Assembly: GCA_022508345.1 (NCBI GenBank)
Contig: JAFLVK010000003.1
Coordinates: forward strand, 1-64,000
DNA length: 64,000 nt
Direction: 5' to 3'
Source of the DNA: Clostridiales bacterium
GTDB taxonomy: Bacteria > Bacillota > Clostridia > Christensenellales > CAG-314
Under the pieces are notes generated by a model. That model saw nothing but the letters and a program-made list of their open reading frames with translations, made no database searches and was not told the DNA's origin. The first letter of the stretch is position 1, and each line of letters starts with the position of its first letter. Below, piece after piece: positions 43,070 through 45,520 of this stretch. The translations under genes were made by a program, and so were the position numbers.

Positions 43070-43657
43070 TCAATCGACATCAAAGTGTTGGAAGCGGTCC
43101 TTCATATGTCCGAAGTAGAAAGTGATGAGCTCTCTTGCCTTGCGCTCCTGCACTTCCTTAGAGTCGCTGTTGCTCAAGATCTTGAAAAAGCTTGTCAAAA
43201 ATCCCTCTGCAACGGCGGAATAGAATTCGGGGTTTTGAATTTTACTGTCTATCTCGGGGAATACGCTTTGCACCAGTTCCTTTATCTTGGTTGCCATCAC
43301 GTCCGTTATGTACTGCATGAAGGTGTCATGGTGAACGGAATTTCCCTTGAAGATAATGAGCAACTCGTCGTTGTATTGCATTATGAAAGCAATGAGCGTT
43401 TCGGAAAGCTCCTTCATGGTTTTGTTGGTGAAGCTGAAATCGTTGTCAACGAAATTTCTCACGCTCTCCATGAACGGCTTGATAATTGCAAAGTACAGAT
43501 CTTCCTTGTTGACATAATATCTGTAAATATTACCCAATGAAATTTCCGCATTGTCGGCAATATTGCGGATGGAAGCGTCGGCATAACCCTGCGCCTTGAA
43601 TTCCTCTACTGCCGCAACAAGTATTCTATCTCGAATTTCCTTCTTTAGATATTGCAT
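43070..43657 (-). CDS. TetR/AcrR family transcriptional regulator
   Basis: 195 residues. N-terminal helix-turn-helix (about 8-55) with RDRILVAAVEEFKAQGYADASIRNIA and ISLGNIYRYYVNKEDL, the classic TetR pattern. The C-terminal ligand domain is variable. It probably represses a target in response to a small molecule. No transporter or obvious target is divergent to it; the gene is monocistronic with its own promoter. Confidence 0.92.
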   Translation of the reverse strand: MQYLKKEIRDRILVAAVEEFKAQGYADASIRNIADNAEISLGNIYRYYVNKEDLYFAIIKPFMESVRNFVDNDFSFTNKTMKELSETLIAFIMQYNDELLIIFKGNSVHHDTFMQYITDVMATKIKELVQSVFPEIDSKIQNPEFYSAVAEGFLTSFFKILSNSDSKEVQERKARELITFYFGHMKDRFQHFDVD

Positions 43658-43766: not shown

Positions 43767-44495
43767 CTAGTATGCGCACTCCAGTAGCATTTTGTCCGCC
43801 AAAAGAGCAATAAATTCACCGTTTGTGGGCTTTTCGGAGGAGTTGTACACCTTTACACCAAAGATATTGTTGATATTCTCTATCTTACCCCTGTTCCAAG
43901 CTACTTCGATTGCATGGCGGATGGCGCGCTCCACCTTGCTGGAGGTTGTATTGAACCGCTTTGCAATGGACGGATACAGGCTCTTGGTAATAGCGTTGAT
44001 GATGGGAGGATTGTCCACAGCAAGCTTGATACCCTCACGCAAAAATTGATAACCTTTGATATGTGCGGGGATACCTACGCTGACAAATATGCTGCTTATA
44101 CGCTCGTCAAGGGTTTTTTCGGAAACGCTCTTTTTGCGCACTACCTTTCCACCCAGACGTTCGCCCTCGTAGACGTTTAATATACGCTGTTCCAATACGC
44201 TGTACTCCACGGGCTTTACCAGGTAGTACTTTGCGCCAAGGTCCAACGCTTTTATTACAAAGACTTCGCTTTTCAGCTCGGAAGCAACAATAAACTTGGC
44301 ATCGTGGTATTTTTCCATCAATGCGTAGCCATCTTCACCGCCCATTACCAGCTCGGTTATTACTACGTCGGGGACATTCTCGTCTAGACACCTGCGGGCA
44401 TCCCTTCCGTCTACGTCAAAAAGCACTTGAAATTCGTCATTTTCTTCCAATTTTTCCTTCAATCCCGATTGTCCAATCAAACCTATTGTAATCAC
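43767..44495 (-). CDS. spo0A: Stage 0 sporulation protein A, with degenerate receiver domain
   Basis: 242 residues from a GTG start at 44495 (AGGAG upstream). The C-terminal Spo0A domain (about 135-242) is intact: VGIPAHIKGYQFLREGIKL, SLYPSIAKRFNTTSSKVERA and IRHAIEVAWNRGKIENIN. The N-terminal receiver (1-120) keeps its fold but not its chemistry: the phosphoacceptor Asp is Glu48 (DVVITELVMGGEDG), the acidic pair is Gly8-Gln9 (IGLIGQSG), while the Ser (ASELKSE) and Lys (YYLVKP) remain. Spo0A normally needs phosphorylation to dimerise and switch on sporulation. This one may be regulated another way. A 0A box lies in its promoter region. Confidence 0.92.
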   Translation of the reverse strand: MITIGLIGQSGLKEKLEENDEFQVLFDVDGRDARRCLDENVPDVVITELVMGGEDGYALMEKYHDAKFIVASELKSEVFVIKALDLGAKYYLVKPVEYSVLEQRILNVYEGERLGGKVVRKKSVSEKTLDERISSIFVSVGIPAHIKGYQFLREGIKLAVDNPPIINAITKSLYPSIAKRFNTTSSKVERAIRHAIEVAWNRGKIENINNIFGVKVYNSSEKPTNGEFIALLADKMLLECAY

Positions 44496-44526: not shown

Positions 44527-44532
44527 ATTGTA
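44527..44532 (-). promoter_or_regulatory. Candidate -10 element of spo0A
   Basis: Minus-strand TACAAT, 32 nt before the GTG, preceded by GTGT (TG at extended position). No good -35 hexamer is found 16-18 nt upstream, so activator dependence or another sigma factor is possible. Confidence 0.4.
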
Positions 44533-44585
44533 ACACGACACAACCTGTTGTATTCGAAAAGAAAAGGGGGATATAGCACAAAAAT

Positions 44586-44592
44586 TGTCGAA
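44586..44592 (+). promoter_or_regulatory. Candidate 0A box upstream of spo0A
   Basis: TGTCGAA, the Spo0A-binding consensus (extended TTGTCGAA), lies about 54 bp upstream of the candidate -10. Suggests autoregulation. A 7-bp match can occur by chance. Confidence 0.4.
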
Positions 44593-44700: not shown

Positions 44701-45087
44701 TTATTCTTCGGTATTTTCTGCTTCTGTTGGCTCTTGTTGGTCTTGTTGCGGCGTTGATTCTTCGGGAAGTTCCAGCTCCACAACTTCGTAGGTGGGTTCA
44801 CGTTTGGTTGCTGCCCTGTACTGTCGTATGTCCGGCAAAATGCAGATGTAGAAAGTTGAACAGAAAAGGGTTATTAACACCTTGCAAAGCACCATTACGA
44901 CAACATTCAATACCGGTATCCAGCTGAACAGCATGTTGATGGCTGTCAGCACCATTTCCATAACAAAGGAAACCGCGTAAATGGGCACGCCAACTATTAA
45001 GCACAGCGTCTTTACAATGTAGTACCACCATGCTTTACGGGTGTAGTTGAATATCCAATGAAGTCTTATTAAATAATATTCTTTCAT
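44701..45087 (-). CDS. Hypothetical membrane protein
   Basis: 128 residues. Two or three hydrophobic segments (about 20-48, and 52-85 in one or two passes) and an acidic Gln/Glu-rich C-terminal tail (PEESTPQQDQQEPTEAENTEE). No family recognised. AGAGG lies before the ATG, and a clean promoter and terminator frame it, so it is a real single-gene unit. Confidence 0.7.
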   Translation of the reverse strand: MKEYYLIRLHWIFNYTRKAWWYYIVKTLCLIVGVPIYAVSFVMEMVLTAINMLFSWIPVLNVVVMVLCKVLITLFCSTFYICILPDIRQYRAATKREPTYEVVELELPEESTPQQDQQEPTEAENTEE

Positions 45088-45289: not shown

Positions 45290-45520
45290 ATAAATCCGGT
45301 AGGTGAGGCTACCATGGGGATACGGATTGCTACCGACCAAACGTGGAGACACGTCAAGTCTGGTAAGCAGGGTTTGTCGAAAACAAGGCTCATCCTAATG
45401 CAATTTCATCGCCCCATGATGCTAAAACTTGTAATGGTTGGGCGTTAGTTTCCGTCATGAAAGAAACACATTTTGTCTGCACTGTTACAGGATGCAGATT
45501 TTTTTTACGCTATCTGCCAC
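45290..45520 (+). promoter_or_regulatory. M-box (ykoK) magnesium riboswitch
   Basis: The leader opens with GGTAGGTGAGGCTACCATGG, GGGATACGG and TTGCTACCG, the conserved first helix region of the M-box. Later come GTGGAGACACG and GATGCTAAAACTTG, also M-box landmarks. An intrinsic terminator follows and then mgtE. In the M-box class, high Mg2+ stabilises the fold that ends transcription. This 457-nt stretch between genes holds the promoter, riboswitch and terminator. Confidence 0.93.
45476..45506 (+). terminator. M-box expression-platform terminator
   Basis: Stem TCTGCACTG / CAGGATGCAGA with 3-nt loop, followed by eight T residues (45499-45506), 38 nt before the mgtE ATG. Confidence 0.9.

Follow-up and report, generated by a model that had tools for sequence, protein, structure and literature searches.

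Sporulation is generally held to start with the phosphorylation of Spo0A. A 2024 review recounts the hypothesis of a universal clostridial start by orphan-kinase phosphorylation of Spo0A, with a relay noted in some members (PMC11210211), and Davidson et al. (2018) reported at least one orphan kinase in 47 of 48 spore-formers (PMC6136694). Pseudo-receivers as a class are already well known. ChxR, HP1043, RitR, GlnR and JadR1 are receivers by sequence that have lost residues of phosphotransfer, and in the aspartate-less group the second acid is lost more often than the first (PMC4395418, PMC12632262). Glu is the commonest substitute for the missing Asp (26%; PMC4395418), and Bourret et al. call the idea that such a Glu mimics phosphorylation an attractive hypothesis for pseudo-receivers and note its failure in some cases (PMC12632262). 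According to one of these sources, the Glu of the pseudo-receiver ChxR is dispensable for activity, and Asp-to-Glu alone did not make Bacillus subtilis Spo0A constitutive (PMC4395418, citing Green 1991). No natural Spo0A of the pseudo-receiver type was described in the top-ranked open-licence full texts that we consulted.

Here we describe such a protein, encoded in a contiguous stretch of 64,000 nucleotides (the window; Table 1). It scored 210.8 bits against the Spo0A orthologue model TIGR02875, above the curated cut-off of 200, and its Spo0A_C domain matched with 135.5 bits (E 7.9e-40, residues 133-235), which bears out the earlier note in calling it a Spo0A with a good DNA-binding half. The GTG start is backed by relatives, in which MIKIGLIG begins at the equal position. 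The closest solved structures were the DNA-binding domains 1lq1 and 1fc3 and the Spo0A receiver 1dz3; on alignment with the latter, Glu48 matches the Asp within 'lllDiimphldg'. All of the residues singled out in that note (Gly8, Gln9, Glu48, Gly52, Ser72 and Lys94) were read as it gave them, with Gly52 replacing the Pro of the D+4 position. Measured against a canonical response regulator, the phosphoacceptor Asp and both acidic metal ligands are absent; the domain, which matched Pfam Response_reg with 44.8 bits over residues 11-105 and is missing D, DD1 and DD2, is accordingly classed as a pseudo-receiver.

Table 1. Features of the spo0A locus and of related loci discussed in the text.
Feature	Position	Strand	Details and basis
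spo0A, pseudo-receiver type	43767..44495	minus	242 aa, GTG start; TIGR02875, Spo0A_C and Response_reg matches
Receiver domain, residues 1-112	44160..44495	minus	Response_reg match and alignments
Gly8-Gln9 codons, replacing two metal-binding acids	44469..44474	minus	alignment
Glu48 codon GAG, phosphoacceptor position	44352..44354	minus	alignment, including 1dz3
Ser72, Thr/Ser switch position, retained	44280..44282	minus	alignment
Lys94, conserved Lys, retained	44214..44216	minus	alignment
Spo0A_C DNA-binding domain, residues 127-242	43770..44117	minus	PF08769; 92/115 positions invariant across the genus
0A box TGTCGAA in antisense orientation, about 95 nt before the start of spo0A	44586..44592	plus	exact sequence match
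TGTTACAAT, putative -10-like element of the spo0A promoter	44527..44535	minus	by eye; similar in most of the genus
TetR-family regulator	43070..43657	minus	PF00440, 48 bits; own promoter-like element (intergenic region, by eye)
Membrane-like protein, upstream of spo0A	44701..45087	minus	128 aa; no Pfam match
Receiver-less Spo0A_C paralogue	L002:1468-1914 (own genome C1:596950-597264)		148 aa
Long, mostly hybrid kinases with no separate regulator motif nearby	L249-L252, L255, L256		

In common with canonical Spo0A of Bacillus and Clostridium, the protein has the usual domain order and DNA-binding domain and a TIGR02875 score above the cut-off, and 0A boxes precede both its own gene and an early sporulation operon. 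It lacks the phosphoacceptor, the metal-binding acids and the D+4 Pro, and no orphan kinase was found in its own genome by PF02518. As with the direct route in Clostridia, for which a Spo0F-Spo0B relay is not expected in most of the class (PMC11210211, PMC6136694, in the sections cited), no relay is expected here; in contrast to the orphan-kinase route, the site itself cannot be phosphorylated in the normal way. With other pseudo-receivers it has in common a receiver recognisable by sequence that has lost residues of phosphotransfer, and Glu as the most frequent substitute and a more frequent loss of the second acid than of the first are likewise features of both groups. It differs from them, since its output is Spo0A_C, a developmental switch of sporulation, and since Ser/Thr72, Lys94 and the aromatic residue are all kept, compared to about 65% of pseudo-receivers keeping each of D, T and K in the cited part of PMC12632262.

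We looked for a second, canonical spo0A in the genome and for Asp at position 48 in relatives, the two findings that the earlier note had set against its own reading. No second Spo0A with a receiver was detected in the window's genome (94.9% complete), and among the genus matches listed (down to E ~7e-8), no genome had more than one full-length Spo0A. The sole other Spo0A_C protein of the window's genome is a receiver-less paralogue (63 bits), which could compete for 0A boxes; many of the order's genomes contain similar receiver-less matches.

Relatives were drawn from a sample of 101 genomes, the window's own and 100 others, of which 25 belong to the window's genus. Full-length Spo0A was found in 21 of these 25. 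Asp48 occurred in none of the 21; Glu48 and Gly8 were present in all of them and Gln9 in 20 (G017 has Glu9), while Pro52 was found in 0/21. The Glu48 codon was GAA in 11 and GAG in 10. The other four genomes (G001, G003, G008 and G016) gave no full-length match, probably because of assembly gaps, since in G001 only 204 bases separate the gene that normally adjoins spo0A from the start of its contig, and in the other three this neighbour was likewise not found. A true loss of spo0A in G001, G003 and G008 was set aside as probable assembly gaps, and G003 and G008 retain perfect 0A boxes upstream of spoIIAA.

For 19 other genus members and one member of the sister genus g11, the spo0A DNA was identical to named records. 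These were Clostridiales or Clostridia metagenome-assembled genomes (MAGs), many labelled 'Lapin' (rabbit, by name), and included one sheep colon MAG, one goat colon MAG and Candidatus Fimimonas merdipullorum (G007). NCBI taxonomy places Candidatus Fimimonas under Myxococcota, probably in error, given that the spo0A stretch of its record L125 matches exactly the one in G007, a member of this Clostridia genus. As far as we looked, no spores have been seen in these MAG-only bacteria.

Across the genus the receiver is under purifying selection. Its median dN/dS was 0.065, compared to 0.015 for the more slowly evolving DNA-binding domain; saturated pairs were left out, so that the two medians are based on 63 and 58, respectively, of 210 pairs. 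Within the receiver, 50 of 111 positions were invariant over the 21 genomes, and mean dN was 0.094 in the loop and 0.093 in the alpha4-beta5-alpha5 part, compared to 0.242 in the N-terminal part. Glu48 in 21/21 genomes together with this selection ruled out a sequencing error or a pseudogene. A gradual decay, in which the receiver is being lost and either sporulation has gone as well or the DNA-binding half triggers it unaided, would account for the missing acid pair and Asp, and would fit with both the receiver-less paralogue and the strongly degenerate Spo0A receiver of G088 (f24; L182), which has Tyr at 48 and has lost Lys94. We consider it improbable, given the low dN/dS, the invariant positions, the retention of Lys94, Ser/Thr72 and aromatic residue 91, the 0A boxes that hold fixed places amid diverged DNA, and the presence of SpoIVA in 24 of the 25 genus genomes. 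The selection on the receiver and the conserved boxes support the view, already taken in the earlier note, that this is not just a decaying gene.

The boxes themselves were located by exact matches to TGTCGAA. One lies no more than 300 nt upstream of spo0A, on either strand, in 18 of 21 genus members, and at -93 to -106 in 17 of them (16 of one set of 19, plus G024), within intergenic DNA that has diverged except for the TGTTACAAT-like -10 (by eye). The whole window holds 11 exact sites. Besides the one at spo0A, an exact 0A-box-like site at window position 45375, some 98 nt ahead of the start of mgtE, may be due to chance. Six of nine genus genomes (G000, G003, G008, G009, G010 and G021) carry the exact box in the same orientation before spoIIAA, at -82 to -85; G005 and G011 have a one-mismatch box at the same position and G017 a weaker one (by eye). 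In both genomes of g11 and in one of two of g4, an exact box lies nearer the spoIIAA start (-61 to -63), and no box was found before spoIIAA in G026, G030 and G031 of the window's family. Putative 0A boxes are thus kept at spo0A and early sporulation promoters in the genus. The regulon evidence is weaker in another family, f28, because boxes there are sparse: an exact box precedes spoIIAA in 0/17 genomes and spo0A in 5/17 rows of genus g38 and 0/3 of g104.

The spoIIAA-spoIIAB-sigF genes and spoIVA of the window's genome lie outside the window. The claim of the earlier note that other sporulation genes are present inside it is a weak point, as matches to SpoVD, SpoVE, YtxC and Lon-type models fell below their cut-offs in an NCBIfam scan of 20 window proteins, in which Spo0A was the sole sporulation-named match above cut-off.

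A TetR-family gene adjoins spo0A in all 20 named loci (19 from the genus and 1 from g11), including L113 and L124, whose other neighbours lie elsewhere; in L125, tetR is cut by the contig end. A palindrome in the gap between spo0A and tetR was considered as a TetR operator but rejected, as it is present in the window yet in 0/18 relatives compared. The membrane-like protein encoded upstream of spo0A is present in 18 of the 20 loci and absent from L113 and L116. In G029, from the window's family, spo0A and tetR have been lost from an otherwise recognisable locus, and SpoIVA was not found.

To place Glu48 in a wider context, we aligned 119 Spo0A proteins, one per genome, from 61 genera of the order; the set is non-random, consisting of the closest matches and all f28 genomes among the matches listed. 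At residue 48, 69 rows from 51 genera have Asp, 46 rows from 8 genera have Glu, 2 rows from one genus have Gln, and Cys and Tyr occur in one row each. The eight Glu48 genera are g1, g2 and g8 of family f1, g20 of f10, g49 of f15, g38 and g104 of f28, and g46 of f6, the last of which contains both Asp48 and Glu48. Both metal acids were retained in 0/46 Glu48 receivers compared to 49/69 Asp48 receivers. Ser/Thr72, Lys94 and Tyr/Phe91 were each retained in 46/46 Glu48 rows, and in 69, 67 and 66 of the 69 Asp48 rows. The K+2 residue was Ala, Ile, Leu or Val in 42/46 Glu48 rows compared to 33/69 Asp48 rows, although by genus the fractions were only 0.67 and 0.51; since rows are related, the eight genera are the fairer unit. 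Of 11 genera in which Asp is replaced, 8 have Glu, an excess over the 26% given for aspartate-less receivers generally in PMC4395418 (binomial 0.0016; 0.043 with only 4/6 independent events).

We then mapped residue 48 onto a tree of 118 rows, built with G088 excluded as degenerate and with columns 8, 9, 48 and 52 left out. Glu48 required 7 changes, at least 4 of them forced by supported branches. A single Glu48 clade was rejected (p-AU 2.4e-09, thinned set of 85 rows), and tests on smaller sets supported two origins in the family to which the window belongs (p-AU 0.003) but did not reject one origin for the two f28 genera (p-AU 0.093). Glu48 arose several times in the order. A pairing test of pocket loss against residue 48 yielded too few pairs for significance. 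The pockets of sister genera (GQ/D in g7, EQ/D in g10 and g11) indicate that the acid pair was lost before Asp, and the window's genus may represent the end point of a stepwise change in which loss of the acid pair was followed by Asp to Glu.

Judged from these alignments, the residues of phosphotransfer are gone, while those that read the phosphoryl group (Ser72, Lys94 and aromatic residue 91) and the DNA targets are kept. Because the phosphate site has been lost yet Spo0A and its targets persist, these bacteria probably decide on sporulation without the usual phosphate signal. The sequences lend good support to the proposal of the earlier note that the switch may operate without the phosphorelay. 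We favour, with moderate confidence, a pseudo-receiver Spo0A that works without Asp phosphorylation and is controlled by its abundance together with a second permissive signal, rather than by a kinase. Weighing against this reading are the failure of Asp-to-Glu alone to make B. subtilis Spo0A constitutive, the dispensable Glu of ChxR, the faster evolution of the receiver relative to the DNA-binding half, and the kinase findings given below. Loss of the two acids would remove repulsion, so that Glu48 could pair with Lys94 and Ser72, and this pairing would keep the receiver active-like and able to dimerise. Residues of the Ala, Ile, Leu and Val class at K+2 shift CheY towards active states (PMC12632262). 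Unlike Asp-to-Glu alone, Glu48 here is accompanied by further changes, in the acid pair and at K+2. Were newly made Spo0A already active, the decision would fall to its abundance: the amount of Spo0A would set sporulation by autoregulation through its own 0A box, the linked TetR regulator might feed into this level, and a second permissive signal would be needed in addition.

Sad67 is the name given to a laboratory constitutive Spo0A. Induction of constitutively active Spo0A in B. subtilis led to sporulation given a second, extracellular factor (PMC4689505), which shows that such a design can work. The laboratory form and the present Spo0A would share kinase-free activity, so that level and a second signal decide, but the former is a laboratory mutant, while the variant described here is a natural and conserved set of substitutions.

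The same receiver might instead act as a sensor, with a small molecule or a partner protein at the altered pocket or dimer face switching Spo0A on or off, as in JadR1, RedZ, ShkA and CikA. Ligand-regulated pseudo-receivers are described in the cited part of PMC12632262, purifying selection on the receiver and the stronger conservation of its loop and alpha4-beta5-alpha5 part relative to its N-terminal part are consistent with such a role, and a possible partner exists in sister genus g7, where the gene immediately 3' of spo0A encodes a single-domain pseudo-receiver. We regard this as doubtful, since we have no candidate ligand and since a new ligand site would not require the phosphorylation readout residues, which are kept in 46/46. 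Another covalent mark on Glu48 or on nearby Ser, Thr or Lys residues (Glu phosphorylation or methylation, Ser/Thr phosphorylation, or acetylation) is known or proposed for other atypical regulators such as GlnR (PMC12632262, PMC4395418, parts cited); nothing in our data points to a modifying enzyme, and we consider such a mark very improbable. The g7 single-domain genes (L198:981-1340 and L199:913-1275) perhaps represent a split-off copy of the Spo0A receiver.

A natural, genus-wide Spo0A that cannot take phosphate normally breaks the rule of phosphorylation as the general start of sporulation, and provides ready-made variants for asking what phosphate does for Spo0A. It also opens questions of sporulation timing by abundance or ligand, and of how signalling is rebuilt as genomes shrink. 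Tests of sporulation by the mere presence of spo0A, as in the cited part of PMC11536998, are blind to the difference between canonical and pseudo-receiver forms.

The earlier note had also suggested a check for orphan kinases, and we surveyed histidine kinases using PF02518 (HATPase_c), which AgrC-type kinases can escape (one in G081 matched only at 4.6e-4). The window's genome encodes six HATPase_c proteins, named from their sequences as two histidine kinases, ParE, GyrB, SpoIIAB and MutL, and both kinases adjoin their own response regulator. Across 11 of the 25 genus genomes, the window's own and 10 others mostly picked for few kinase matches, 23/23 kinase matches (E <=1e-18) lay within 1.6 kb of a response regulator; one further HATPase_c match, in G010, is not a kinase. 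No orphan kinase was therefore detected by PF02518 in these 11 genomes. Eight long kinases from G001, G002, G012, G013, G014 and G018 were spot-checked with a crude regulator-motif pattern over about 9 kb around each, and 6 had no separate regulator motif. These six, of 602-1111 aa, are from G001, G002, G014 and G018; five of them carry a receiver motif fused to the kinase. They may be orphans because no such motif lies nearby, so that in these four genomes the absence of orphan kinases does not clearly hold. No kinase as long was matched in the window's genome. G002, G014 and G018 have Glu48, and the G001 assembly is without spo0A.

An idea that orphan kinases vanish together with Asp48 was not supported. 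Strong kinase matches were all paired in G027, G035 and G040, which belong to the window's family and have Asp48 with a full Asp-Asp-Asp pocket, while G205 (f6) has Glu48 and 5 strong kinase matches; together with the possible orphans, these genomes indicate no close link between kinase content and residue 48. A reading of G049 and G077 as kinase-free from best E-values proved wrong, each having one kinase.

Family f28 has genomes of 0.8-1.4 Mb that are 96-100% complete. Of 32 examined, 30 had no recognised histidine kinase by PF02518, with common matches judged by size. The exceptions were G386, with a HisKA kinase beside a regulator-like gene, and G154, with a 116-aa ATPase fragment. Matches in the other 30 had the size and span of GyrB, ParE, MutL and SpoIIAB, and doubtful ones checked by Pfam were HATPase_c_3, HSP90 or SpoIIE proteins. 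Two of the HATPase_c_3 proteins (G090 and G286) also carry a C-terminal HATPase_c domain, and for that reason may have kinase activity of a new kind. These kinase-poor genomes nevertheless have spo0A. SpoIVA was found in G067 and G090, a spoIIAA relative in 17/17 genomes, and a SpoIIAB-sized match in nearly all. Recognised kinases are lacking in both the Asp48 and the Glu48 genera of f28, and G205 combines Glu48 with its five strong matches; kinase loss and Glu48 are thus separate events. We think it rather likely that sporulation was uncoupled from Asp phosphorylation several times in genome-reduced gut Clostridia, by loss of the acid pocket and then of Asp to Glu, with one whole family keeping Spo0A and sporulation genes and almost no histidine kinases.

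Large HATPase_c_3 proteins are encoded at L184:910-3075, L242:800-2899 and L244:1547-3535, two of them with a strong C-terminal HATPase_c match. By eye, the L244 protein lies beside a methyltransferase-like gene and the L242 protein beside a receiver-like gene, and the three loci look like defence islands.
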